The translations under genes were made by a program, and so were the position numbers. From the NCBI GenBank assembly GCA_947588755.1, contig CANPZB010000010.1, positions 1-45,134 on the forward strand: a DNA stretch of 45,134 nt, in the 5' to 3' direction. This stretch comes from Candidatus Gastranaerophilales bacterium. GTDB taxonomy: Bacteria > Cyanobacteriota > Vampirovibrionia > Gastranaerophilales > Gastranaerophilaceae. The notes under the pieces are model-generated. The model saw only the letters and a program-made list of their open reading frames with translations. It did no database searches and was not told where the DNA came from. This document shows, one piece after another, positions 2,242 through 44,124 of this stretch (position 1 is its first letter; the number at the start of each line of letters is the position of its first letter).

Positions 2242-2280
2242 GAACAGACAAAATTGATTGATACATCGGAAGAATAATTT

Positions 2281-2314
2281 AAAAAAAAAGAAGCGGTCTT
2301 ATTTTAAGACCGCT
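2281..2314 (-). terminator. Intrinsic terminator downstream of sigma-28 promoter A
   Basis: Perfect 10-bp stem (2292-2301 with 2305-2314, AGCGGTCTTA/TAAGACCGCT) and a 3-nt loop. Read on the minus strand it is followed by nine T (complement of A 2281-2289), a strong intrinsic terminator. It lies only about 35 nt after the predicted start site of sigma-28 promoter A. Confidence 0.8.
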
Positions 2315-2344
2315 AAAATTATTAATTTCCCTTTTGTTCCCATA
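2281..2344 (-). ncRNA. Predicted short sigma-28 transcript A (about 60 nt)
   Basis: This is the segment between the sigma-28 promoter at 2351-2377 and the terminator at 2281-2314. It would give an RNA of about 60 nt that is mostly the terminator hairpin. It also holds a 14-codon reading frame (MGTKGKLIILAVLK) running into the hairpin, with its ATG almost at the predicted start site and no separate ribosome site. It may be a small RNA, a leader left behind after loss of a downstream gene, or simply a blocked promoter. An almost identical copy is at 16507-16570. Confidence 0.35.
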
Positions 2345-2350
2345 TTGTAA

Positions 2351-2377
2351 TTATCGGCAAAAATTTTTTAAACTTTA
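2351..2377 (-). promoter_or_regulatory. Sigma-28 (FliA/SigD-type) promoter, copy A
   Basis: On the minus strand: TAAAGTTT (2377-2370), an 11-nt spacer, then GCCGATAA (2358-2351). This equals the published enterobacterial FliA consensus TAAAGTTT-N11-GCCGATAA at every defined base. The same sequence recurs at 16577-16603, and two variants sit before the large genes at 16943-19267 and 21620-23584. Confidence 0.8.
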
Positions 2378-2400
2378 ACACATTACACCCGAGCCGAGCC

Positions 2401-2430
2401 ATGCTATGCTATGCTATGCTATGCTATGCT
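2401..2430 (-). repeat. Pentanucleotide array, six ATGCT units (copy A)
   Basis: Six perfect tandem ATGCT units (AGCAT on the minus strand) between the sigma-28 promoter (23 bp away) and the GTAAA/TTTAC inverted repeat (30 bp away). The other three modules have four, five and four units with identical 23-bp and 30-bp flanks, so unit number is the only length variable. Confidence 0.9.
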
Positions 2431-2460
2431 ATGAGCAGTGTAGCAAGGGTTTCGGGGTTT

Positions 2461-2504
2461 GTAAAATAATATTTACAATTCGTTATATTTGATGTAGGAC
2501 ATCA
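2461..2504 (-). promoter_or_regulatory. Conserved double inverted repeat upstream of sigma-28 promoter A
   Basis: Two dyads: GTAAA-N6-TTTAC at 2461-2476 and TGATGT-N3-ACATCA at 2490-2504. Both occur in all four modules at fixed spacing from each other, which suggests operators for one or two DNA-binding proteins. The protein is not identified. Confidence 0.5.
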
Positions 2505-13953: not shown

Positions 13954-16503
13954 TTGACTCAACAGAATATATTTGATGACGGGAAAATTATTCCCGTAAA
14001 CATCAGGGAAGAAATGAAACGGTCATATATTGATTATGCCATGAGCGTAATTGTCGGCAGGGCGTTACCTGACGTAAGGGACGGATTAAAACCCGTACAC
14101 AGACGTATTTTATACGCAATGAACGAACTTGGCATGACCCCCGATAAACCGTTCAGAAAATGTGCACGTATCGTCGGTGAAGTTCTCGGTAAATATCATC
14201 CGCACGGTGACAGTTCCGTATATGAGGCACTTGTACGCCTGGCTCAGGATTTTAATACAAGATATCTCATAGTGGACGGACACGGGAATTTTGGTTCCGT
14301 TGACGGCGACGGTGCTGCTGCTATGCGTTATACGGAAGCAAGAATGCATAAAATTACAACCTCAATGCTTGCGGATATAGATTGTGAAACGGTTGAATTT
14401 GAACCTAACTTTGACGGTTCTTTGCAAGAACCTTCGGTTCTTCCCGTAAGATTACCGATGCTGTTGTTAAACGGTGTTTCCGGTATCGCTGTAGGTATGG
14501 CAACAAATATTCCGCCGCACAATCTGGGTGAAATAGTTGACGGAACAATTGCACTTATTGATAATCCTAACATAACCGTTTCGGAATTAATGGAATATAT
14601 CAAAGGTCCTGATTTCCCGACTGCCGCAACAATCATAGGTATTAATGACATAAAACAGGCTTATGAAACGGGCAGAGGTTCAATAAAAATGCAAGCCGTT
14701 GCTAATATTGAAGAAATCGCAGGCGGTGCGGGCAGACAATCCCGTACGGCTATAATTATTACCGAAATACCGTATCAGGTTAATAAAGCGGTTCTTATCG
14801 AAAAAATTGCCGAATTGGTAAAAGACCAGAGAATAACAGGGATTTCGGATATAAGAGATGAATCCGACAGAGAAGGTATGCGTGTCGTAATTGAATTAAA
14901 ACGTGACGCAAAACCTGACGTTGTAAAAAATAATTTGTTCAAATTTACTCAGCTTTCAACAACTTTCGGTGTAAATATGCTTGCACTTTGCGGCAAACAG
15001 CCCCGACTGCTTAACCTTTATGAAGTTTTGTCGGAATTTGTTGAACACAGGGTGGAAATTGTTACACGAAGAACAATATTTTTCCTCAAAAAAGCCAAAA
15101 TCAGAGCACATATCTTGGCGGGTTTAATTATTGCACTTGGTTCTATTGATGAAGTAATAGAATTAATCAAAAGTTCAAAAACCACTGATGATGCAAGAGT
15201 AGGGCTTATGAGCCGTTTCGGACTGGATACGGATCAGGCAAATGCTATTCTGGAAATGCAATTAAGAAGGTTAACGGGACTTGAACAAGACAAGGTTAAA
15301 GCTGAATACGACGAACTTGTTAAGAAAATTGCCGAATATGAAGAAATTCTTGCAAGCCGTCAAAAAATTCTTGATATTATTAAAAAAGAATTGCTTGAGG
15401 ACAAAGAAAAATACGGTGATGACAGAAAAACTCAAATTCTTCCCGAACAAGGCGAAGTAACTATCGAAGATTTGACTCCCAACACGCCTATGGCGGTATT
15501 TATTACTCATCAAGGGTATTTAAAACGTATTTCACTTGATACGTTTGAACGTCAAAACCGTGCCACACGAGGCAAATCAGGTATAAAAACCAAAGAGGAT
15601 GACGATATTCAGCACTTCTTTACTGCAATGATGCACGATAAAGTTCTGTTCTTCTCGTCAAAAGGTACGGTATACAGCCTGAATGTATATGATTTCCCCG
15701 AAGGCGGACGTCAGGCTAAAGGTTTGCCCATTGTAAACGTACTTCCGATAGAACAGGACGAAAAAATAACGGCAGTAGTTCCGATTAGCACATTTTCAAA
15801 AGATTTAAACCTTATAATGCTTACCAAAAAAGGTTATATAAAACGTATTGAACTTGATAATTTTTCAAATATAAGAAGAAACGGTATTATAGCTATCGGT
15901 TTAGAAGAAGACGACGAGTTATGCTGGGTAAAACTTGCCACAGCGAGAGATGAAATCATTATAGGGACTTCCTGCGGTATGGCAATAAGATTTCCGATAC
16001 AGGATTTACGACCGTTAGGCAGAAGTGCAAGAGGAGTAACTTCCATGAAGTTACGCAAAGGAGATACTATTGTAGGCTGTGATATAGTTCCGAAAGATTA
16101 TGACGCGGACTTATTGGTAGTAACTTCCGACGGTTTCGGTAAACGCACAAAATTATCCGAATTCAGAAGCCAGAACAGAGGCGGAATAGGTCTTATAGCT
16201 ACAAAATTCAAATCCGCACAATCGAAACTTGTTGCACTGACTATTGTACAGGATTCTGACGATATAATGATGGTTACGGCAAACGGAGTTGTAACCAGAT
16301 TAAACGCAGGCTCAATTTCCCGTCAGGGACGTCCGGCAACAGGCGTAAGGGCACAAAATCTGGTTGAAAACGACACCGTTGTTTCGGTTAACAAAATTGT
16401 TAATCCCGATGAAGATGAACAAATAAAAAAAGATGCAGAAGGAATGGATAACGACCTCGAAATTGCCGAACAGACAAAATTGATTGATACATCGGAAGAA
16501 TAA
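13954..16503 (+). CDS. gyrA: DNA gyrase subunit A
   Basis: An 849-aa type IIA topoisomerase subunit that cuts and rejoins DNA. The start is TTG, supported by a strong GGAGG. The catalytic tyrosine is Tyr126 in AAMRYTEAR. The quinolone-resistance region reads [10 protein letters not shown] (82-91), with Ser87 at the E. coli Ser83 position and Glu91 at the Asp87 position, both wild-type-like states. The C-terminal domain contains six-bladed pinwheel repeats and a gyrase-box variant QNRGGIG, which supports GyrA rather than ParC. gyrB is not in the window. The last eleven codons are duplicated at 2242-2274. Confidence 0.96.
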
Positions 16504-16506
16504 TTT

Positions 16507-16540
16507 AAAAAAAAAGAAGCGGTCTTATTTTAAGACCGCT
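16507..16540. terminator. Terminator between gyrA and sigma-28 module B
   Basis: Perfect stem 16518-16527 with 16531-16540 (AGCGGTCTTA/TAAGACCGCT). On the minus strand it is followed by nine T (A 16507-16515), a strong terminator for the sigma-28 transcript. On the plus strand the tail is only AAAATTATTAATTT, so it may end gyrA transcription less efficiently. Confidence 0.8.
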
Positions 16541-16570
16541 AAAATTATTAATTTCCCTTTTGTTCCCATA
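16507..16570 (-). ncRNA. Predicted short sigma-28 transcript B (about 60 nt)
   Basis: The promoter at 16577-16603 points at the 3' end of gyrA, and transcription would stop at the hairpin after about 60 nt. The sequence is the donor of copy A (2281-2344) and differs by one base in the leader. It includes the same 14-codon frame (MGTKGKLIILAVLK). It could be a small RNA or an empty promoter site. Confidence 0.35.
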
Positions 16571-16576
16571 TTATAA

Positions 16577-16603
16577 TTATCGGCAAAAATTTTTTAAACT
16601 TTA
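16577..16603 (-). promoter_or_regulatory. Sigma-28 promoter, copy B
   Basis: Minus strand: TAAAGTTT (16603-16596), an 11-nt spacer and GCCGATAA (16584-16577), a full match to the FliA consensus. No gene follows; the terminator lies about 37 nt beyond the promoter. Confidence 0.8.
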
Positions 16604-16626
16604 ACACATTACACCCGAGCCGAGCC

Positions 16627-16646
16627 ATGCTATGCTATGCTATGCT
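16627..16646 (-). repeat. Pentanucleotide array, four ATGCT units (copy B)
   Basis: Four perfect ATGCT units, 23 bp from the sigma-28 promoter and 30 bp from the GTAAA/TTTAC dyad. Confidence 0.9.
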
Positions 16647-16676
16647 ATGAGCAGTGTAGCAAGGGTTTCGGGGTTT

Positions 16677-16720
16677 GTAAAATAATCTTTACAATTCGTT
16701 ACATTTGATGTAGTACATCA
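16677..16720 (-). promoter_or_regulatory. Conserved double inverted repeat, copy B
   Basis: GTAAA-N6-TTTAC at 16677-16692 and a perfect TGATGTA-G-TACATCA dyad at 16706-16720. Homology with module D (23647 onward) extends some 45 bp further, through ATGATTTACTGAACAACATG. Confidence 0.5.
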
Positions 16721-16723
16721 CAT

Positions 16724-16942
16724 TCGGTCGGATTTTAATGATTTACTGAACAACATGTTACGAAAATTCTAAGATTATGCCCGTGTTAATGCTGTATATA
16801 AAAGAGCCTGAAACAATAATAATGTCATGCTGAACTTGTTTCAGCATCTTATTTGTGCAGTACCTATACATACATGACCCTGAAATAAATTCAGGATGAC
16901 ATGAGGGTGTTCGGGATGGCAAAGGGCAACACAGAGAAAACA
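16724..16942. repeat. Gene-free stretch with palindromic dispersed repeat
   Basis: Holds the tail of module B and two palindromes of the dispersed repeat family: ATGCTGAACTTGTTTCAGCAT near 16825-16850 and a related one near 16875-16905 next to TTCAGGATGACATG. A short frame here would encode CHPEFISGS and MLKQVQHD, the well-known translation of such repeats; I do not count it as a gene. Confidence 0.6.
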
Positions 16943-19267
16943 TTATGAAAATGCTTTGAATGAACGTTCTATGTTTTTGTCAATTACACTTTTCAAAGAA
17001 TCATATTCCGTTTGAAGTGCCGTATGTTCGGTTTCAAGACGTTTTAAGTCAGAATCGTATTTTTTATCTTCGATTTCAATTTCATTTAACGCATTTTTGT
17101 ACTTGGTTTCCGCTTTTGCAATGGCAATTTCATTTTGAGTTGTGGAAATATCAGCCGCGTTGCCGTATTCAATTGAAGTCCAGTCATAAGTACCCATTTT
17201 GGGGTAGGTTATTGAACCTTTTTCGTTAAACGATACCTGTTCAAGCGTAATTACACCGTGTTCAAGTGCAAATTGAATCCATTCAGCATTATTCATAAGG
17301 TTGGAATCAAGTTCTTTGCATTTATTGACTGTTGATTTAGTAGTTTCCGTTAAACCCCCCATTCTGTACCAGAGGTTTTTGTACCATTGGTATTTCGGGT
17401 CATCGGTATTAAAATTAAATTCTGTTTCAGGTGCCGGTTCTGTACCTATTTCTTTTAGCTTATTCTCGGCAATTTTTTGTTGACTTTTTAAATTATCGTA
17501 GTCGTTCAGCCATTCTTGGTATTTGGTGTAAAAATCGTTGTATTGTTTAATACAATTTGCAGCCCAAGTAGCAAATTCTCTGTTATAATTTTCTCTTTCT
17601 TCCTGTTGTATGGTAGCCGCTATAGCATCTAAATTTTCACCAACGGCAATACCGCTGAAAATATTATAACTAAACATATCATCTGCAAAATATCTCATCC
17701 ATGATGTTTGCGTTGCATGGTCATATTCCCAATCCTGTTTGGACTGTTCATTCATTTCCCAAATAGTCTTTTTAGTGGTGCTTTCTAAACCTGTTACGGG
17801 ATCTAATTCTGTTACTTCAAAAATATGATTAGGATCGTCCGTTTCGGGATTATTATATTCCATATCAACCGGTCTGCAATTATTACCCGAGTTATCAGTA
17901 AAATCGGCAAACATATGATAATAACTGCTTGTAGAGGTATCTGAATTTACAATATCAATTATTTCCATTACGTAAGCAAAAGTATCAATAATGTTTGCAA
18001 CTAAGCTTTTTGCAGAATTTGGATTTTCGCTGTTTAATTTGGTCAAATTATTAATAAATTCATGATATCCCGGATCCATAACATTTATTGATTCGGTACC
18101 GTTTGCAACCTGAGCACCGATATTTTCACCCGGTACCAAATTGGTATGCAATTCAATTTCACTTAAATGTCCTGTCCCGAAATTATCACTATAGCCCAAT
18201 TGGCTGCCTAAAGTCGAAAAATTCAAAGTACGTCCGGATGTCACACCTACAATATCAAGTATACTGCCTTCTAAAGCATTACCATATCCGAAAATAAGTG
18301 CGGAAAGAAGGTTAGCCAAATTACATAATTCTTTTATGGTTGTTTCTTCGTGCCAATGGTCATCACCGGAGTTAAAAAGAACTTCCGCATTATCCAATGA
18401 ATTCCAGTATTTACTGAAATTAGCATTACTATCAATTTTATTATTTTTTGCGTATTCTGCTTTTATATCATCCAACTCGCGAGGCTTAACCGCCGTGCAT
18501 CCGCTAAATGCATTAAGTTGCGGAGAACAGTTAAGTTTATCTTTATATTTAGTAGTGTCTTTTCCTGCTTCAATTGTATTGCCGTTACTATCTTTACCGT
18601 TATTAATTTGTGTTAAAGCACTATTGATATTGCTGACCCAACTCGGATAATAACCGCTATTATCAGAATTCTTATATATTTGATTTAAAGTATTTAAAAA
18701 GGCTGTTTGATTAGCAGTATTGTCAGCACCAAAAGTAGTATTATCAGTATAAGTCAAACTTGCAGGAAATGTTCCTTTAGGAAGATCGGGAAGATACAAA
18801 TTGGCTGTATTCTGTAATTCTTCTATGGTTTTGCCACCTAAAATTATTTCCTTTTGTCTGTTATATTCATCAATTTCAGCCTGATTAGTAATTACTTCTT
18901 TTGATTTTCCAATACCGTATTTAGATAGAAAATCTTCTAAAGTTTTACTGTTTGTGTAATTGTTAAAATCCTGACTGCTTACGAGAAGCTGACCTTGTGA
19001 ATTTACAATACCGTACTGGTTTTTGAGTTCGCCGTAACTCGTTAATATTGAAGGAGTTAACAACTGATTTGTTCTCAAACCGTTTTGGTCATAGCTTACG
19101 TAAGTAAATTGATTATCGTTTAACGCCGCCATATAATCGCTGCTGGCTTCGCTTGATTTGTCGGCAAGACGGAGTTTTGAATTTGTTATCAATTGAGAAC
19201 GCATTTCGTTGTCCGTTAAACGAGCCGTTATACTTAATAATCTTGCTTGTGCTGCCGACATTCCCAT
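16943..19267 (-). CDS. Large sigma-28-controlled protein with conserved helical ends (paralogue 1)
   Basis: A 774-aa protein of unknown function. It starts MGMSAAQARLLSITARLTDN, followed by a helical, Ser/Ala/Lys-rich stretch to about 70. The middle (about 100-620) is Asn/Thr/Tyr/Asp-rich. The last 65 residues form a heptad-like helix ending TEYDSLKSVIDKNIERSFK. There is no Sec signal peptide and no membrane segment. The 654-aa protein at 21620-23584 shares both ends and a region before the final helix, while the middle differs. Helical ends around a variable core and a sigma-28 promoter 30 nt upstream are features of axial flagellar proteins, so export by the flagellar type III apparatus is a reasonable inference, not shown. 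AAAGGG precedes the ATG. It is not recognisable as flagellin, FlgK or FlgL. Confidence 0.85.
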   Translation of the reverse strand: MGMSAAQARLLSITARLTDNEMRSQLITNSKLRLADKSSEASSDYMAALNDNQFTYVSYDQNGLRTNQLLTPSILTSYGELKNQYGIVNSQGQLLVSSQDFNNYTNSKTLEDFLSKYGIGKSKEVITNQAEIDEYNRQKEIILGGKTIEELQNTANLYLPDLPKGTFPASLTYTDNTTFGADNTANQTAFLNTLNQIYKNSDNSGYYPSWVSNINSALTQINNGKDSNGNTIEAGKDTTKYKDKLNCSPQLNAFSGCTAVKPRELDDIKAEYAKNNKIDSNANFSKYWNSLDNAEVLFNSGDDHWHEETTIKELCNLANLLSALIFGYGNALEGSILDIVGVTSGRTLNFSTLGSQLGYSDNFGTGHLSEIELHTNLVPGENIGAQVANGTESINVMDPGYHEFINNLTKLNSENPNSAKSLVANIIDTFAYVMEIIDIVNSDTSTSSYYHMFADFTDNSGNNCRPVDMEYNNPETDDPNHIFEVTELDPVTGLESTTKKTIWEMNEQSKQDWEYDHATQTSWMRYFADDMFSYNIFSGIAVGENLDAIAATIQQEERENYNREFATWAANCIKQYNDFYTKYQEWLNDYDNLKSQQKIAENKLKEIGTEPAPETEFNFNTDDPKYQWYKNLWYRMGGLTETTKSTVNKCKELDSNLMNNAEWIQFALEHGVITLEQVSFNEKGSITYPKMGTYDWTSIEYGNAADISTTQNEIAIAKAETKYKNALNEIEIEDKKYDSDLKRLETEHTALQTEYDSLKSVIDKNIERSFKAFS

Positions 19268-19296
19268 GTTGTTTTCCCTTTCTTGTTACATGAATA

Positions 19297-19324
19297 CTAT
19301 CGGCATATCCCTCAAAAGTCTTTA
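19297..19324 (-). promoter_or_regulatory. Sigma-28 promoter of the 774-aa protein gene, copy C
   Basis: Minus strand: TAAAGACT (19324-19317), a 12-nt spacer and GCCGATAG (19304-19297), which is TAAA-N16-GCCGAT, within the sigma-28/sigma-D range. The predicted start site is about 22 nt before the ATG, leaving room for the AAAGGG ribosome site. Confidence 0.75.
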
Positions 19325-19347
19325 GCAGAGTACACCCGAGCCGAGCT

Positions 19348-19372
19348 ATGCTATGCTATGCTATGCTATGCT
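19348..19372 (-). repeat. Pentanucleotide array, five ATGCT units (copy C)
   Basis: Five perfect ATGCT units, again 23 bp from the promoter and 30 bp from the dyad. The odd unit number puts the upstream dyads about half a helical turn away from their phase in modules B and D. Confidence 0.9.
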
Positions 19373-19402
19373 ATGAGCAGTGTAGCAAGGGTTTCGGGGT
19401 TT

Positions 19403-19446
19403 GTAAAATAATCTTTACAATTCGTTACATTTGATGTAGTACATCA
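19403..19446 (-). promoter_or_regulatory. Conserved double inverted repeat, copy C
   Basis: GTAAA-N6-TTTAC at 19403-19418 and a perfect TGATGTA-G-TACATCA at 19432-19446. Homology with the other modules stops at about 19449, which marks the outer edge of the module. Confidence 0.5.
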
Positions 19447-19495
19447 CATGCACGCCTGCATTTTTGATAAAAACTTTTTCGAGAATGAAAAAATA

Positions 19496-19846
19496 TTAAA
19501 GATTAATTTGGGACAAAATATATTCCAGCCGCTTTTTATCGTGAAGATACCACATGCCGATAAGTGTTTCAAACGCAGTGGCAAGGCGGTATTCGGCTTG
19601 ATTTGAACGACGTCCGACGGGTATGGGCAAATTTCTGCCGCGGCGGGATATTTCTTTTTCTTCTTCCGTTAAAAGGGGTTCTATTTTATCCAAAAGTACC
19701 GCCTGAAACTCCGTCTTAACTTTTTGGGTTGTAATTTCGTGCAGTTTTTTGGAATTGTTTGTCATAAGTATGGTTTTTTCGCGGACAATAAGTTCCCATA
19801 CCGCATCCCCAAGATATGCCAAGTTTCTTAAATTCATTTCCTGCAT
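19496..19846 (-). CDS. mrnC: Mini-ribonuclease III
   Basis: A 116-aa RNase III catalytic domain without the double-stranded-RNA-binding domain. It matures 23S rRNA precursors in the organisms where it is known (Firmicutes, cyanobacteria). NLAYLGDAVWEL carries the catalytic Asp14, and RRGRN plus ATAFETLIGMWYL correspond to the second acidic motif. Slightly short against a usual 120-145 aa. The ATG at 19846 lies 8 nt after a TATAAT (19860-19855) and has no Shine-Dalgarno sequence, so it may be leaderless. An alternative start at 19837 has AGGAA only 2 nt upstream. Flanked by module C. Confidence 0.88.
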   Translation of the reverse strand: MQEMNLRNLAYLGDAVWELIVREKTILMTNNSKKLHEITTQKVKTEFQAVLLDKIEPLLTEEEKEISRRGRNLPIPVGRRSNQAEYRLATAFETLIGMWYLHDKKRLEYILSQINL

Positions 19847-19889
19847 AAAATCATATTATAATAAAAAAGCCTGCAGACAAATTTTTTTA

Positions 19890-19918
19890 TTGAAATTCCG
19901 TAAATTGTATGTGATAAT
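19890..19918 (+). promoter_or_regulatory. Promoter of the Spy/CpxP-like gene
   Basis: TTGAAA (19890-19895), a 17-bp spacer and GATAAT (19913-19918). The predicted start site lies about 15 nt before the ATG and AAAGGGA lies between. Confidence 0.65.
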
Positions 19919-19940
19919 TTTTTGTGGAAAAGGGAAAATT

Positions 19941-20546
19941 ATGAAAAAATTAACTATATTATTTGTTTTGGCAATTCTTATAAGTTCATCCGTAATTGCA
20001 GCCGACAAAAACAACTATCCGACGGGAAAATATCAGGTTCACACCAAATGTCTTGATTTAATGACTTCAATGTACAACGAACGCGAAACCATGTACAATG
20101 TTTTAAACCTGACTCAAGACCAAATTAAATGTAAAAATCAAATTGACAAAGAAAGATATCAGGAACTTGACGTTGTTTTTAATCAGTTAATGCAAGAGAA
20201 ATATGTTCTTAAAAAACTTTGTGAAAACGGAGCCGATACCGCTTCCGTAAAGAAGCAGGAAAAAATTATAGACACTTATGAAAAAAAATTAAAAGACACT
20301 GCTGACAAATATGATGAAGAATTTTTGTCAATATTGAACAGCGAACAGCGTTCCAAATACAAAACCGTTAAAAAAATGGCAAGAAAAGAAATAAAATATT
20401 GTCAAAAAAATAAAGCTTTTTACAAACGCGACCCCAAATTAAGACCTTTCGGGCAAGCCATGTATACCACTGACAACGAAACATCTTTGTGTCCCAAGCA
20501 TAAAATTTGGCACCTTTTCGGAAGAAAATGCCGACCCGAAGAATAA
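19941..20546 (+). CDS. Periplasmic Spy/CpxP-like protein
   Basis: A 201-aa exported protein. Signal peptide MKKLTILFVLAILISSSVIAA. The mature part is a long, charged helical protein with two LTxxQ-like motifs, LNLTQDQIKCKNQIDKE near 57-73 and LNSEQRSKYKTVKKM near 135-150, as in Spy/CpxP chaperones of the periplasm. Eight Cys residues, including the C-terminal CPKHKIWHLFGRKC, suggest disulfides or metal binding, which classic Spy lacks. I chose the ATG at 19941 because it starts the signal peptide and has AAAGGGA upstream. Confidence 0.75.
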   Translation: MKKLTILFVLAILISSSVIAADKNNYPTGKYQVHTKCLDLMTSMYNERETMYNVLNLTQDQIKCKNQIDKERYQELDVVFNQLMQEKYVLKKLCENGADTASVKKQEKIIDTYEKKLKDTADKYDEEFLSILNSEQRSKYKTVKKMARKEIKYCQKNKAFYKRDPKLRPFGQAMYTTDNETSLCPKHKIWHLFGRKCRPEE

Positions 20547-20607
20547 ATTTGAATTAAATAAGATAAATAAATGATGATTTTTGGGTAATTATTATTATAA
20601 TTGAGTT

Positions 20608-21249
20608 ATGAAAAAGTTTGTTATCCTATACTTTTGCTTTTTACTCACGCTGAGTCCTTGTTTTGCATTCGGAAAGAAAAAAGTTTCCTCTGCAAGTTCT
20701 CAAAACAAAGGATATGTCGGAAAATTGCCCGATATTGCAAAAGATTATAATGCGGACGGGCAAAAAACCAACAAACCTGTTTATGAATATTCCGAAGATT
20801 TTAATTCCGCAAACGAAATCAAACCTGTTCCGAGGGAAAATCCGGCATTTGTAAACATAATTTTAAAATCCGATAAAACTTCACAATATGTAAATGATAT
20901 AAACGAAATTATCCCAATATTGGAAAATTTATATGACATAATCGAAAATGACGAAAGTTTACAGTTATTTGCGGCAAAAGTATATTTTTTGAACAAGAAC
21001 TGCGATTGGTTGAGAGAAAAATATCTTGAAAAACCCGAAAGCAGTTCGGTATCTTTCCAAAAACTAATGGAATTAAATCTGCATACCCGTTCGGTATCGA
21101 TATTACGGACCGAAGCCGTCAAGTATAACCCTTATCTGGCGTACGGCGGAAGCGGTTCGATTTATGAAGCAAATAATATAAATCAGCAGCTTGAATATTT
21201 AAAAACGGAAATTGAAGAAACTATAGTTGTTTTAAAAGATGCGAAATAA
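20608..21249 (+). CDS. Secreted protein of unknown function
   Basis: A 213-aa exported protein. Signal peptide MKKFVILYFCFLLTLSPCFAFG, then a Lys/Ser-rich linker, a Pro/Asn/Glu-rich region to about 90, and a helical C-terminal half (IIPILENLYDIIENDESLQLFAAK; EYLKTEIEETIVVLKD). I do not recognise a family. TATAAT at 20596-20601 lies only 6 nt before the ATG and there is no clear ribosome site, so the mRNA may be leaderless. It follows the Spy-like gene on the same strand after 61 nt. Confidence 0.72.
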   Translation: MKKFVILYFCFLLTLSPCFAFGKKKVSSASSQNKGYVGKLPDIAKDYNADGQKTNKPVYEYSEDFNSANEIKPVPRENPAFVNIILKSDKTSQYVNDINEIIPILENLYDIIENDESLQLFAAKVYFLNKNCDWLREKYLEKPESSSVSFQKLMELNLHTRSVSILRTEAVKYNPYLAYGGSGSIYEANNINQQLEYLKTEIEETIVVLKDAK

Positions 21250-21619
21250 TATTCGTTCGGGATGTCATGGTGGGGGTGTTCGGGATGACGTGCGGGTAGT
21301 GTATTGTTTGTCATAAACAGACAAAATGCGACTAAATAAGATCCTGAAACCGTCTTGGATTTGCTCCACGCTCACAGAGTTTCGCATTTGTGGCTTCGCC
21401 ACAGTATGCTCAATCTGTTCGCTATCCGGACTCGTTACCACTCCGTCCGTACGCAAATCCGCAAGTTCAGGATGACATGGTGGGGGTGTTCAGGATGACA
21501 TGAGGGGGGTAGTTAAGGGTGACAATTATTGTTCGGGATGTCATGGTGGGGGTGTTCAGGGTGACGTGGTGTGGGGCATGTGGAAAAATGACGAAAAACG
21601 CACGAAATGCCGCGAAAAA
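21250..21619. repeat. Gene-free repeat stretch downstream of paralogue 2
   Basis: Built from repeat fragments: several copies of GTGTTC(G/A)GGATGAC and GATGTCATGGTGGGGGTG, a poly-G tract of six at about 21503-21508, and a segment matching the block at 44530 (GCGGATTTGCGGACGGACGG family). No gene is supported. It includes the 60-bp direct repeat at 21291-21350. Confidence 0.6.
21291..21350 (+). repeat. 60-bp perfect direct repeat, left copy
   Basis: Identical over 60 bp to 23931-23990 (begins TGCGGGTAGTGTATTG, ends AAGATCCTGAAAC). The two copies lie in the same orientation on either side of the 654-aa gene and its sigma-28 module, 2640 bp apart. Reverse-complement relatives occur at about 44780-44840 and 44900-44955. 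Confidence 0.9.
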
Positions 21620-23584
21620 TTATGCACTGTACCGTTTGAATGTTTTTTCAATATTTTTAGTCAAAAGGTTTTTGACCGTATCATATTCCGTAGTTAATGA
21701 AGTTATTTCGGTATCCAAATTTTTCATTTTTAAATCTATTGTTTGTTCTTTAGCACTCAGACGTTCTTTTACGGTGTTATATTTCGCTTCCGCTTTGGCT
21801 ATCGCTTCGTCGTCACTTATTTCTTTAACGTATGTATATGTAGCGTAGTTTCTTTGATAATAATAATCATCGTCTGATATTGTTGTAATAAACATAGAAC
21901 CGTTTTGTATCATTTCCTGTAAATAATCAGGCTTACTAACTTCATCATTGCGAGACCAGCCGGATAAACAAATCTGATTAAATAATGTATCATAAAAGAC
22001 TACATCTTTGTAAGTATCGTCAAGTTTGACAGTATCAGTGTAAGTACATGAAAATATATCATCTACAAAACAACTTCCGCCAACATCACCGATTTTTACC
22101 TGATATCTGCTATTATTTAAATTTGCCAGTCCGCCTGTCATAAATTGTGCAAAATACGTCAGATAGGATTTTGCCATATTATTCATATTAATAATAACAG
22201 TACTTTCATTGTTTCTATCCCTACCGTTTCGCCCTTGGTTTGCAGCCGTAAATAAAAAGCCGATATGATTTTCCTTTTCCGTAAGTTCTTTAAATCTTAC
22301 ATCTTCCACATCATTAGCAAAAGAATATCTGGTACCGACCTTATCAAGGGCATTGCTTGTACCGCCGTTATTTTTTATACCGTTTTTATCTTTGCTTGAA
22401 GAATAAGACGAAAAGACATCTAAATCAGTACTATAATCATATAATTCGTTATATTTTCCGTTTTTAAATAAATCACCTTTTACGCCTGTCGCTTTGGCAA
22501 TTTGCCCCGGAGTATACTGAGTACCGTTTATATCATATACTTGAACTCCGTTACCGGTAATTAAATTGGCAAGAGCCTGTGAAGCATAATTCAACGCTGT
22601 TTGAATGGTTGCATTATCCCCGAAAATTTTTGTGAATTCGTCGTGAAGCCAGCTGATAAATCCGCCTTCCTCAACAAAACTGTTTTGAATAAGTCCGACA
22701 CCGGTAACGGGAGAGTTTTCGGAAGATATCCCCGCACAACCCGAATAATATTGCGTTGTATTATTACCAAAATTGAGTAAACTAGCCAATGTCATTCTGT
22801 CATAATAATTGGTAAGGTTTTTATAATTATCTTCCGTACGGTTTTCATTGCCATCCGGAAAATTTGAGCCAATACTGCCATCTTCGCTTTTTGTCCATGT
22901 AATTATTTGTAAGTATGTTGATGCTTCATGCTCACCATCAATATGGTCGGTATCGTTTTTAATATCATCATCACATTCATCACCATAGTATTTGCCGCTT
23001 AATTGGATGTTATCAGCCGGTTGATAAGCTTTCATTTCATCGCCTTTTGCCAAAATATCCGCATAGATAGAATCTAAAGTAATTTCCTTTGTTATCTGAA
23101 ATTCCAAACCGGATGAACCAAATCCCGCATTCTGGTTATAAGGTACAGAAATAGCTTTGTTGTAAGTACTTGGACCTATTTTATTATTATTTTTTAAAGC
23201 TTCAAGAAACTTGTCTCTGACATCAGAAGAAGGCAATGTCCCGAAACCTTCGGGAGGAATGTCCGCAGCTGCTGCCGCCTCAGCAAATTCTTTATCTAAC
23301 ACAATACCGCCTTTACTATTGGTTATAGTAACAGGTAAAAAGTTATTCAAAGTCGACGGAGTCATGAGCATTGCATAGTTTAATCGGTCGGTACTCGTAC
23401 CCGTTCCGTAGTAATCATATATCAGTTTTGTCTGACCTAAGGAATTTTGGTATTCGTTCGAAATGTTTTCCAAATCACGTGCTATAGATAATTTTTGATG
23501 TGATAAATTCATTGACTGAAATTCACAATCCGACTTCCTCGATGTAATTGTTAATAATCTTGCCTGTGATGCCGATAATCCCAT
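21620..23584 (-). CDS. Large sigma-28-controlled protein with conserved helical ends (paralogue 2)
   Basis: A 654-aa paralogue of the 774-aa protein. It starts MGLSASQARLLTITSRKSDC and ends with the helix AIAKAEAKYNTVKERL to TEYDTVKNLLTKNIEKTFKR. A pre-C-terminal segment also aligns (YLQEMIQNGSMFITTIS against WIQFALEHGVITLEQVS). The central 450 residues, rich in Asn, Gly, Tyr and Asp, show no obvious similarity. No Sec signal peptide or membrane span. ATAAAGGA precedes the ATG, and the sigma-28 promoter is 36 nt upstream. The cassette is bracketed by 60-bp direct repeats. Function unknown; exported surface or filament-associated protein inferred. Confidence 0.85.
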   Translation of the reverse strand: MGLSASQARLLTITSRKSDCEFQSMNLSHQKLSIARDLENISNEYQNSLGQTKLIYDYYGTGTSTDRLNYAMLMTPSTLNNFLPVTITNSKGGIVLDKEFAEAAAAADIPPEGFGTLPSSDVRDKFLEALKNNNKIGPSTYNKAISVPYNQNAGFGSSGLEFQITKEITLDSIYADILAKGDEMKAYQPADNIQLSGKYYGDECDDDIKNDTDHIDGEHEASTYLQIITWTKSEDGSIGSNFPDGNENRTEDNYKNLTNYYDRMTLASLLNFGNNTTQYYSGCAGISSENSPVTGVGLIQNSFVEEGGFISWLHDEFTKIFGDNATIQTALNYASQALANLITGNGVQVYDINGTQYTPGQIAKATGVKGDLFKNGKYNELYDYSTDLDVFSSYSSSKDKNGIKNNGGTSNALDKVGTRYSFANDVEDVRFKELTEKENHIGFLFTAANQGRNGRDRNNESTVIINMNNMAKSYLTYFAQFMTGGLANLNNSRYQVKIGDVGGSCFVDDIFSCTYTDTVKLDDTYKDVVFYDTLFNQICLSGWSRNDEVSKPDYLQEMIQNGSMFITTISDDDYYYQRNYATYTYVKEISDDEAIAKAEAKYNTVKERLSAKEQTIDLKMKNLDTEITSLTTEYDTVKNLLTKNIEKTFKRYSA

Positions 23585-23619
23585 TAATTTGTCCTTTATT
23601 TAAGTAAACTGTATATTTA

Positions 23620-23647
23620 TTATCGGCATATCCGTCAAAAGTCTTTA
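23620..23647 (-). promoter_or_regulatory. Sigma-28 promoter of the 654-aa protein gene, copy D
   Basis: Minus strand: TAAAGACT (23647-23640), a 12-nt spacer and GCCGATAA (23627-23620), with a perfect -10 consensus and TAAA at 16 nt. Confidence 0.78.
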
Positions 23648-23670
23648 GCAGAGTACACTCGAGCCGAGCC

Positions 23671-23690
23671 ATGCTATGCTATGCTATGCT
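23671..23690 (-). repeat. Pentanucleotide array, four ATGCT units (copy D)
   Basis: Four perfect units with the same 23-bp and 30-bp flanks as in the other modules. Confidence 0.9.
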
Positions 23691-23720
23691 ATGAGCAGTA
23701 TATCAAGGGTTTCGGGGTTT

Positions 23721-23764
23721 GTAAAATAATATTTACAATTCGTTACATTTGATGTAAGACATCA
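23721..23764 (-). promoter_or_regulatory. Conserved double inverted repeat, copy D
   Basis: GTAAA-N6-TTTAC at 23721-23736 and TGATGT-N3-ACATCA at 23750-23764, with one substituted base pair next to the centre of the second dyad, as in copy A. Confidence 0.5.
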
Positions 23765-23767
23765 CAT

Positions 23768-24207
23768 TCGGGTCGGGTTTTAATGATTTACTGAACAACA
23801 TGTCATGAAAATTATTTAAAATATTGAAATGTATTGTTGCGGTTATCGGTTTGCGGCAGCAATGTATGTAAAAGATCCTGAAACCGTCTTGGATTTAGTA
23901 TAAAAGATTTTGAAACGAGTTCTGGGTGGCTGCGGGTAGTGTATTGTTTGTCATAAACAGACAAAATGCGACTAAATAAGATCCTGAAACAAGTTCAGGA
24001 TGACATGGTGGGGGTGTTCAGGATGACATGGGGGGGGTAGTTAAGGGTGACATGGGTGGTGTGAGATGACAGGTTACAAGTCAATAATAGCAAGTAAAAA
24101 AGTAATTCTTTCTAAAGTTTTGTAAATATCTGACCTGAAAATTAGCAAAAAATCATGTTTTGAGGCATTAAAGAAATATCACAGATTTATGTATTAAGGA
24201 GTAAAAT
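23768..24207. repeat. Gene-free repeat stretch upstream of module D
   Basis: Contains about 45 bp shared with the outer side of module B, a GCCGTCTTGGAT-type fragment also present at 21350, the 60-bp direct repeat, GGATGACATG units and an eight-G run at about 24030-24037 whose counterpart at 21503 has six G. No gene seen before 24208. Confidence 0.6.
23931..23990 (+). repeat. 60-bp perfect direct repeat, right copy
   Basis: Identical to 21291-21350 and in the same orientation; together they bracket the 654-aa gene with its promoter module. Confidence 0.9.
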
Positions 24208-42465: not shown

Positions 42466-44124
42466 TTACTTACCTAAGATAGTAATAATGAACTCACTGC
42501 CCTTGCCTTCCTCACTGTTTACAATAATTTCGCCCCCATGCTTTTCAATTATTTTTGTGCAAATAGCAAGACCAAGCCCTGTACCGACACCCGCACTCTT
42601 TGTCGTAAATCCTGCCGTAAATATCTTCCCGACTATGTTTTGGGGTATTCCTTTGCCGTCATCTTTTATCTTTACCACCACCTTATTTTTTTTGTAACAG
42701 GTAGTTATTTCTATCGTACCCTTACCCTCTATAGCCTGACATGCATTAATTAATATATTGGTAAACACCTGATTTAACATGTTCGGAAAGCATTGAATTA
42801 AGGGGATTTTACCGTAATTTTTTACGATTTTAATCCGGTTTTTTGTTTCGTGTCTGATTAAATCAAGAGTCAAATCTATTTCTTTATTAATATCTGCATT
42901 TTGAAGTTCCGCTTCGTCGAGACGAACAAATTTTTTCAAACTTGTAACGATATTATTAATTCTTTGAACGGCTTCTTTATCGATATTATTAATCTCGACG
43001 AGCATATCTTTAATTTCGCTGTCCTCAGCTTGCTGCAATAGTTTTGCCGCAATTTCATTGTTTGATTTTATTGAAGCCGTCGGAGTGTTAATTTCATGTG
43101 CCACACCTGCGACAAGCTGACCGAGAGATGCCATTTTTTCGGAATTTATCAGTTGAACCTGAGTTTCTTTCAACTCTTTTAAAGCGGCTTGAAGTTCTTT
43201 TACGGTTTGAATATTTTTCTGATAAAGTTCGGCACCGTTAATAGCGTTTGAAAGTTGAGAAGAAACAGCTTCCAAAATTTCTATTTCGTCACTCAAACCG
43301 CGTTTGTTATAACTCAACAAAACTATTATCCCCATAAGGTTTTGCATGTGATATACAGGGACAATTATTCTCAAAACAGGCTGTTTAAACGGCTGAGCGT
43401 TAAGGTATTCCAAAAGACAATTTGTTATGGAAATCTTTTTGTCTTTAATTGTTTGAAAAGTATTTTCGTCAAAACTTACCGTTTTAACATTTTTATTTTT
43501 TTTGTTGCCGTAAATTTCTTTAACGGTAAAACTGTTTTCTGTTCCGACAGCATAATAAACTTTGTACGCCCCGAACATAACCGCCAGTTCCTTCAAAGTG
43601 GACTGTAAAATCCTTGAAATATCAAAACTTTCTCTTATAATATTTGAAACCTTGTTAATAAGTGCGATACGAATGGCTTGACTTTGAGCCTTTTGTTTAA
43701 TTTTTTGTAAATCGTCATTTTCTTCCAAAAGCACATTGTATTGTTCTTGAAGTCTCCGGTTTTCTTTAAACACATCATCCAGTTTGTTTTTAGCACTTAC
43801 ATCGGTTAAAAACAAAATAGTATAATTTCCTTTTTTAACAGCCGTCAAATCGTAATAAAAAACTCTGTTAAGATTAGCCTGATAAGAAATATGTGCGAAA
43901 AAATTTTCTTTGGACTGCACCGCATGATAGATAGGGGAATATATTTCAATGTTATCGCTTGCAAGCGGACAAATATCAAAATTAGTATTATGAGAAAGTT
44001 TTTTAATATTATCAATATCTTCAAACCACCTGTTGAAAGTATGATTTTTATAAACAATCTCATATTTACGATTAACGATAATAACCGCATCGGTGAATTG
44101 CCTGAAGAAATCAAATTTTTTCAT
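42466..44124 (-). CDS. PAS/GAF sensor histidine kinase, soluble
   Basis: A 552-aa cytoplasmic kinase without membrane helices. A PAS-like sensor at about 5-120 (DAVIIVNRKYEIVYKN) is followed by a coiled coil (about 120-165), a GAF-like domain at about 165-305, then HisKA with the phosphorylated His343 in AGVAHEINTPTASIKSN. The ATPase domain has the N box NQVFTNILINACQAI, DDGKGIP and GTGLGLAIC. VAHEINTP places it in the HK4-type group. No response regulator gene is adjacent, so it is an orphan kinase. The TATAAT at 44136-44131 lies 6 nt before the ATG and no Shine-Dalgarno sequence is present, so a leaderless mRNA is likely. Confidence 0.92.
   Translation of the reverse strand: MKKFDFFRQFTDAVIIVNRKYEIVYKNHTFNRWFEDIDNIKKLSHNTNFDICPLASDNIEIYSPIYHAVQSKENFFAHISYQANLNRVFYYDLTAVKKGNYTILFLTDVSAKNKLDDVFKENRRLQEQYNVLLEENDDLQKIKQKAQSQAIRIALINKVSNIIRESFDISRILQSTLKELAVMFGAYKVYYAVGTENSFTVKEIYGNKKNKNVKTVSFDENTFQTIKDKKISITNCLLEYLNAQPFKQPVLRIIVPVYHMQNLMGIIVLLSYNKRGLSDEIEILEAVSSQLSNAINGAELYQKNIQTVKELQAALKELKETQVQLINSEKMASLGQLVAGVAHEINTPTASIKSNNEIAAKLLQQAEDSEIKDMLVEINNIDKEAVQRINNIVTSLKKFVRLDEAELQNADINKEIDLTLDLIRHETKNRIKIVKNYGKIPLIQCFPNMLNQVFTNILINACQAIEGKGTIEITTCYKKNKVVVKIKDDGKGIPQNIVGKIFTAGFTTKSAGVGTGLGLAICTKIIEKHGGEIIVNSEEGKGSEFIITILGK

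Follow-up and report, generated by a model that had tools for sequence, protein, structure and literature searches.

Four related promoter modules on a Gastranaerophilales contig

We analyzed a stretch of 45,134 nucleotides (hereafter the window), which is contig C10 of a draft genome of 1.83 Mb in 89 contigs that is 99.8% complete. On its minus strand lie two large genes of the MG[ML]SASQAR protein family and, by sequence inspection, all four copies of the module that a first-pass annotation of this DNA had described as two inverted repeats, a pentanucleotide array and a promoter. Each copy (A to D) is about 150 bp long and is composed of dyad 1 (TGATGT-N-TACATCA), dyad 2 (TTGTAAA-N6-TTTACAA), a (CATAG)n array of 6, 4, 5 and 4 units in A, B, C and D, each plus CAT, and a TAAAG...GCCGATA sigma-28 box. 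This box reads TAAA-N15-GCCGATAA in A and B and TAAA-N16-GCCGATA[G/A] in C and D; the copy C promoter, which ends in GCCGATAG, has the -35 TAAA, the -10 GCCGATA and a spacer within 15-16 nt. From the promoter end to the ATG of the large genes we count 30 nt for C and 36 nt for D, matching the 30-36 nt given in the annotation. Its statement that no flagellar gene is in the window also held among those window ORFs that were scanned with Pfam. The features are listed below, with the fit of HLR1, an element described further on, given as matches to the published consensus (PMC11633204).

2351-2507, minus strand: module copy A
2351-2377, minus strand: copy A sigma-28 promoter, gene-less; sequence duplicates B, gyrA 3' end included
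2401-2433, minus strand: copy A (CATAG)6 CAT array
2472-2489, plus strand: copy A HLR1 element, 15/16
16510-16576, minus strand: copy B leader, about 67 nt, with a terminator-like hairpin at its end (z -3.6)
16577-16723, minus strand: module copy B
16577-16603, minus strand: copy B sigma-28 promoter, gene-less, directed at the gyrA 3' end
16627-16649, minus strand: copy B (CATAG)4 CAT array
16688-16705, plus strand: copy B HLR1 element, 16/16
16943-19267, minus strand: family member, 774 aa, MGMSAAQARLL..., with conserved ends and a hypervariable middle
19297-19449, minus strand: module copy C
19297-19324, minus strand: copy C sigma-28 promoter TAAAGACTTTTGAGGGATATGCCGATAG, 30 nt 5' of the ATG of gene 16943-19267
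19348-19375, minus strand: copy C (CATAG)5 CAT array
19379-19407, minus strand: copy C predicted sigma-A-like promoter, TTTACA-N17-TACACT
19401-19420, minus strand: copy C dyad 2, TTGTAAAGATTATTTTACAA
19414-19431, plus strand: copy C HLR1 element TTTACAATTCGTTACATT, 16/16
19432-19446, no strand: copy C dyad 1, TGATGTACTACATCA
21620-23584, minus strand: family member, 654 aa, MGLSASQARLL...
23620-23767, minus strand: module copy D
23620-23647, minus strand: copy D sigma-28 promoter TAAAGACTTTTGACGGATATGCCGATAA, 36 nt 5' of the ATG of gene 21620-23584
23671-23693, minus strand: copy D (CATAG)4 CAT array
23697-23725, minus strand: copy D predicted sigma-A-like promoter, TTTACA-N17-TATACT, 5' of the array
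23719-23738, minus strand: copy D dyad 2, TTGTAAATATTATTTTACAA, overlapping HLR1
23732-23749, plus strand: copy D HLR1 element TTTACAATTCGTTACATT, 16/16
23750-23764, no strand: copy D dyad 1, TGATGTCTTACATCA

The annotation had overlooked three things here: that the module contains HLR1, that it also contains a predicted sigma-A-like promoter, and that A and B form one duplicated block without a gene of its own. This block of about 240 bp (window 2242-2485 and 16468-16701) includes the gyrA 3' end and a terminator-like hairpin, with stretches of 105, 76, 37 and 14 bp identical between A and B. With A and B being the same duplicated block, and all copies being so similar, the four are not independent evidence. 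Near the ribosome-binding site the B leader is similar to the D leader, and on this resemblance A and B may be relic leaders whose gene was lost; a small RNA from the B leader is a possible candidate. An Rfam scan of the window gave no match. Dyad 1, which adjoins HLR1, is conserved in all four copies (2490-2504, 16706-16720, 19432-19446 and 23750-23764) and only partly elsewhere, and short intergenic repeats such as caggatgacatggtgggggtgttcagg occur at window 21250-21600 and 23900-24060.

Sigma-28-type promoters precede a family of large proteins

The genome-wide search proposed by the annotation, run with the pattern TAAAN13-16GCCGATA, yielded 37 matches compared to 9 for the reversed pattern, many of them intergenic and 4-56 nt 5' of a gene. 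The sigma factor on which a sigma-28 reading depends is encoded in the genome (fliA; TIGR02479, 241.9 bits at a cut-off of 189.6), and the lack of fliA that the annotation named as refuting its proposal therefore does not apply. Targets include family members on contigs C4, C17 and C28, with near-matches at C51 and C61. Outside the family they include one LysM/EF-hand protein on C9, one CheD-like protein on C43 that carries an EF-hand, and small proteins of unknown kind. At the C43 locus (G000:C43:10061; L067:4130-4909) the pattern lies 41 nt 5' of the CheD-like/EF-hand gene, whose product shows weak similarity to XopAK-type effectors.

Relatives were retrieved with the window's proteins, and the named ones were mostly Candidatus Gastranaerophilales, a lineage within the cyanobacterial phylum that lives in the gut and does not photosynthesize. 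At 79 loci from these other genomes we scored TAAAG-N-GCCGATA within 120 nt of the start and found scores of at least 10/12 for 56/77 family genes and 11/517 other ORFs (Fisher p about 1e-49, a value that overstates independence since the genes share descent). The claim that sigma-28 promoters serve paralogous, uncharacterised large proteins is borne out by this enrichment, and the reading of the C and D boxes as putative sigma-28 promoters is supported. From C and D, FliA would transcribe the family genes. Like the sigma-28 (FliA/SigD) promoters of late flagellar genes, these sites combine TAAA-N15/16-GCCGATA with a cognate sigma factor and a short distance to the start codon; they differ in that the target is an undescribed family, while flagellin is absent here and seldom under such a promoter in the few flagellated relatives examined.

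The paralogues on C10 and C17 diverge in the middle but are near-identical over ~118 residues at the start and ~150 at the end. AlphaFold gave terminal helices (residues 2-49 and 713-773) mostly at pLDDT above 90 and a low-confidence middle. Long, coiled helices at the two termini flank the variable middle, as in flagellins. Searches with the family found no match at a meaningful level in Pfam and NCBIfam, nothing useful in PHROGs or among the sequences of solved structures, and nothing significant in a Foldseek fold search against solved structures. With the short model, several flagellar filaments were among the top Foldseek matches, all with E above 0.1 and poor superposition, which is only a hint. 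Pfam detected neither Flagellin_N nor another flagellar domain in the family proteins, and we rejected the family as a flagellin homologue after a profile comparison with flagellin returned a probability of 0.2% or less. The family resembles flagellins and other flagellar axial proteins in its helical, conserved termini, hypervariable middle, many paralogues and sigma-28 control, but differs in that neither sequence nor profile homology to them was found. Its role may resemble that of an exported axial or surface protein.

Flagellar export and rod genes in the absence of flagellin

Flagellin gave no match in this genome, whereas four flagellated control genomes gave matches, and the organism seems, from its gene content, to be without a flagellar filament. 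The genome retains a part of the basal body and export gate, with FlhA, FliE, FliF, FliH, a FliMN_C protein, FliO, FliP, FliQ and FliR, together with rod-type proteins (FlgB/FlgC-like and two FlgE/F/G-like). A second FHIPEP protein of 491 aa (G000:C26:4899-5933; L056:4494-5969) matches the C-terminal half of that family only; two flhA are also listed for ACD20 (PMC3787301).

We extended the comparison to 117 genomes of the same taxonomic family, each at least 90% complete and with the window's own genome included. FliA scored above its cut-off in 117/117 and the MG[ML]SASQAR family was present in 117/117, compared to flagellin in 47/117; the 70 genomes without flagellin are each at least 90% complete, the present one being a draft. 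Median copy number of the family was 10 without flagellin and 5 with it. Of the annotation's proposal that these genes belong to the flagellar regulon, the sigma-factor link therefore stands, and the flagellar part does not fit a genome, and 70/117 in its taxonomic family, that have no flagellin. The annotation had also proposed to check whether late flagellar genes share the promoter; a good sigma-28 match was found at only 1/10 flagellin genes examined in flagellated relatives. These flagellin genes (L173-L180) are mostly without a GCCGATA promoter.

We propose that the flagellar export gate, which is retained, would carry the family products out of the cell, where they would be surface or secreted proteins. 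A genuine, though minority, possibility is that the family is sigma-28-controlled and not exported by the gate, being either a cytoplasmic coiled-coil or a surface protein delivered by another route, with the basal-body genes as relics of a decaying flagellum. This reading agrees with the profile comparison, in which no homology to axial proteins was found, and with earlier authors, who read partial flagellar gene sets as non-functional (PMC4040986); it also has a precedent in Legionella oakridgensis, which lacks the entire flagellar system yet keeps FliA and FlgM (PMC5655016). What speaks against it is that FliOPQR, FlhA, FliE, FliF, FliH and the rod genes are intact open frames and that FliA is universal among the 117 genomes, unlike random decay. 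The FliA regulon of non-flagellated L. oakridgensis (PMC5655016) is similar in that FliA outlived the flagellum, but there the whole flagellar system is gone, whereas export gate and rod genes remain here and the lineage as a whole conserves a large family of targets.

An HLR1 element lies upstream of the sigma-28 box

The annotation assigned the TGTAAC-GAAT-TGTAAA stretch of the module to an inverted repeat; we find that it forms a perfect HLR1 element. In B, C and D, AATGTAACGAATTGTAAA is TTTACAATTCGTTACATT on the opposite strand and agrees with 16/16 defined HLR1 positions, forming two (G/T)TTACA(T/A)(T/A) direct repeats 2 nt apart (15/16 in A). The consensus (G/T)TTACA(T/A)(T/A)NN(G/T)TTACA(T/A)(T/A) is the RpaB site of photosynthetic cyanobacteria (PMC11633204, PMC9241938), in which RpaB activates from an HLR1 50-100 nt upstream (PMC11633204). 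The inverted repeats overlap this direct repeat, and of the two signals the direct repeat says more. For dyad 2, sites of CRP/FNR, Rex and NtcA were weighed on spacing and dropped for HLR1 by reasoning only.

HLR1 at 14/16 or better was found in 55/71 promoter regions of relatives, compared to 35/512 control regions and 25/710 shuffles, and 12/71 fit the consensus exactly; scrambled HLR1 motifs gave a mean of 2.3 and a maximum of 12. Among direct spacings from N3 to N9, only N5 (TTACA-N5-TTACA, the HLR1 spacing) stood out. In the present genome, 15/16 promoter-type sigma-28 sites had HLR1 at 13/16 or better versus 1/20 other pattern matches, the two classes having been assigned by hand and the 16 including gene-less A and B. 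Most family members carry HLR1 and the sigma-28 box only, and the four-copy dyad/array module is consequently not the defining unit. Most HLR1 centers are 25-27 bp from TAAA, and smaller groups sit at about 15 and 36 bp, a separation of ~10.5 bp or about one helical turn. Relative to the expected start, the main group would fall at around -60 to -70, inside the activation zone reported for RpaB.

Compared with HLR1/RpaB of photosynthetic cyanobacteria (PMC11633204, PMC9241938, PMC6331805), the consensus is the same and the array-less promoters likewise place HLR1 in the zone 50-100 nt upstream. The differences are that the hosts here are non-photosynthetic, that HLR1 is paired with sigma-28 boxes, and that in the array-bearing copies of the window it sits ~93-103 bp from the box. 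Reports of RpaA, RpaB and NblS in Melainabacteria go back to 2013, and a different, unknown function has been suggested for them there (PMC3787301); RpaB orthologues are reported in all orders of the class (PMC3787301, PMC4040986, PMC5877343). RpaB, or a close OmpR-type relative, would act on the family promoters from about -60 to -70. A motif search for an OmpR-type regulator in the loci collected from this and other genomes found none, a result that says little either way. It is unlikely, in our view, that the sigma-28 promoters are real and the upstream element belongs to a different OmpR/PhoB-type regulator (RpaA or PhoP-like). A PhoP-like regulator also uses TTAACA/TTACA direct repeats, the half-sites vary (TTAACA, TTTACA, GTTACA), and there is also enrichment of inverted arrangements with N7-8 (17-18/71 at 9/10 or better); the exact consensus in B, C, D and the 12 relatives, and the reported distribution of rpaB, favor RpaB instead. 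The minus-strand gene at window 42466-44124 encodes a histidine kinase that combines GAF, HisKA and HATPase domains.

A candidate regulon of FliA promoters with HLR1

Together our results suggest that C and D are probably FliA promoters with an upstream HLR1, in a conserved Gastranaerophilales regulon whose core is the MG[ML]SASQAR family and not flagellin. Promoter, HLR1, phased spacing and lineage-wide conservation can be read from the sequences; from these we infer the action of FliA and RpaB and export of the products. It is very improbable that the module is just a repeat element, or debris left by duplication, with promoter-like letters by accident: A and B are indeed gene-less and were duplicated along with gyrA sequence, and the array part of the module occurs without a sigma-28 box at C39:4342 and C45:1976, but family members lacking the module, here and in other species, have the same promoter and HLR1. 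As a main explanation, a mobile repeat was ruled out on the same ground, that promoter and HLR1 also occur without the module.

The HLR1 element, the lineage-wide conservation and the flagellin-independent regulon are new. The candidate regulon joins two puzzles, the RpaB system in Melainabacteria and the partial flagellar gene sets that were read as decay, and hints that what is left of the flagellar export machine may still be working. HLR1 with sigma-28 ahead of a universal family (117/117) makes a role of RpaB apart from photosynthesis testable. More speculatively, after flagellin loss the export gate and sigma-28 might have been redirected to a new set of exported surface proteins with a flagellin-like shape, controlled by RpaB, the ancestral light/redox regulator, and in certain members tuned by the slippage of repeats.

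A pentanucleotide array at some promoters

In A to D and in a diverged module copy with a sigma-28 box near C9:38504, a sigma-A-like promoter and then a pentanucleotide array lie between HLR1 and the sigma-28 box; in D, the sigma-A-like promoter TTTACA-N17-TATACT has GAAACCC in its spacer. The same layout with other 5-mers is present in other species (loci L109, L130 and L186, and L185 without an evident box), and C39 and C45 have it without a sigma-28 box. As an addition to the regulon of FliA promoters with HLR1, we tentatively consider the array a contingency repeat, in which slippage would change by 5 bp the distance of the sigma-28 box from both HLR1 and the sigma-A-like promoter and so alter expression, each unit gained or lost turning the site through roughly half a helical turn. 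Consistent with slippage, the distance from dyad 2 to TAAA in this genome is 76, 81, 86 or 91 bp, in steps of 5 bp, and different units occupy the same place (CATAG and ATATG here, TATGC and TATGT in other species); on the other hand, the arrays have 4-6 units only, and the copies compared are paralogues, not alleles. Only some promoters have the array as an addition, and the array-type variant is uncommon: the strict module pattern was found in 5/117 genomes, and 2 of the 4 matches in other genomes had an array.
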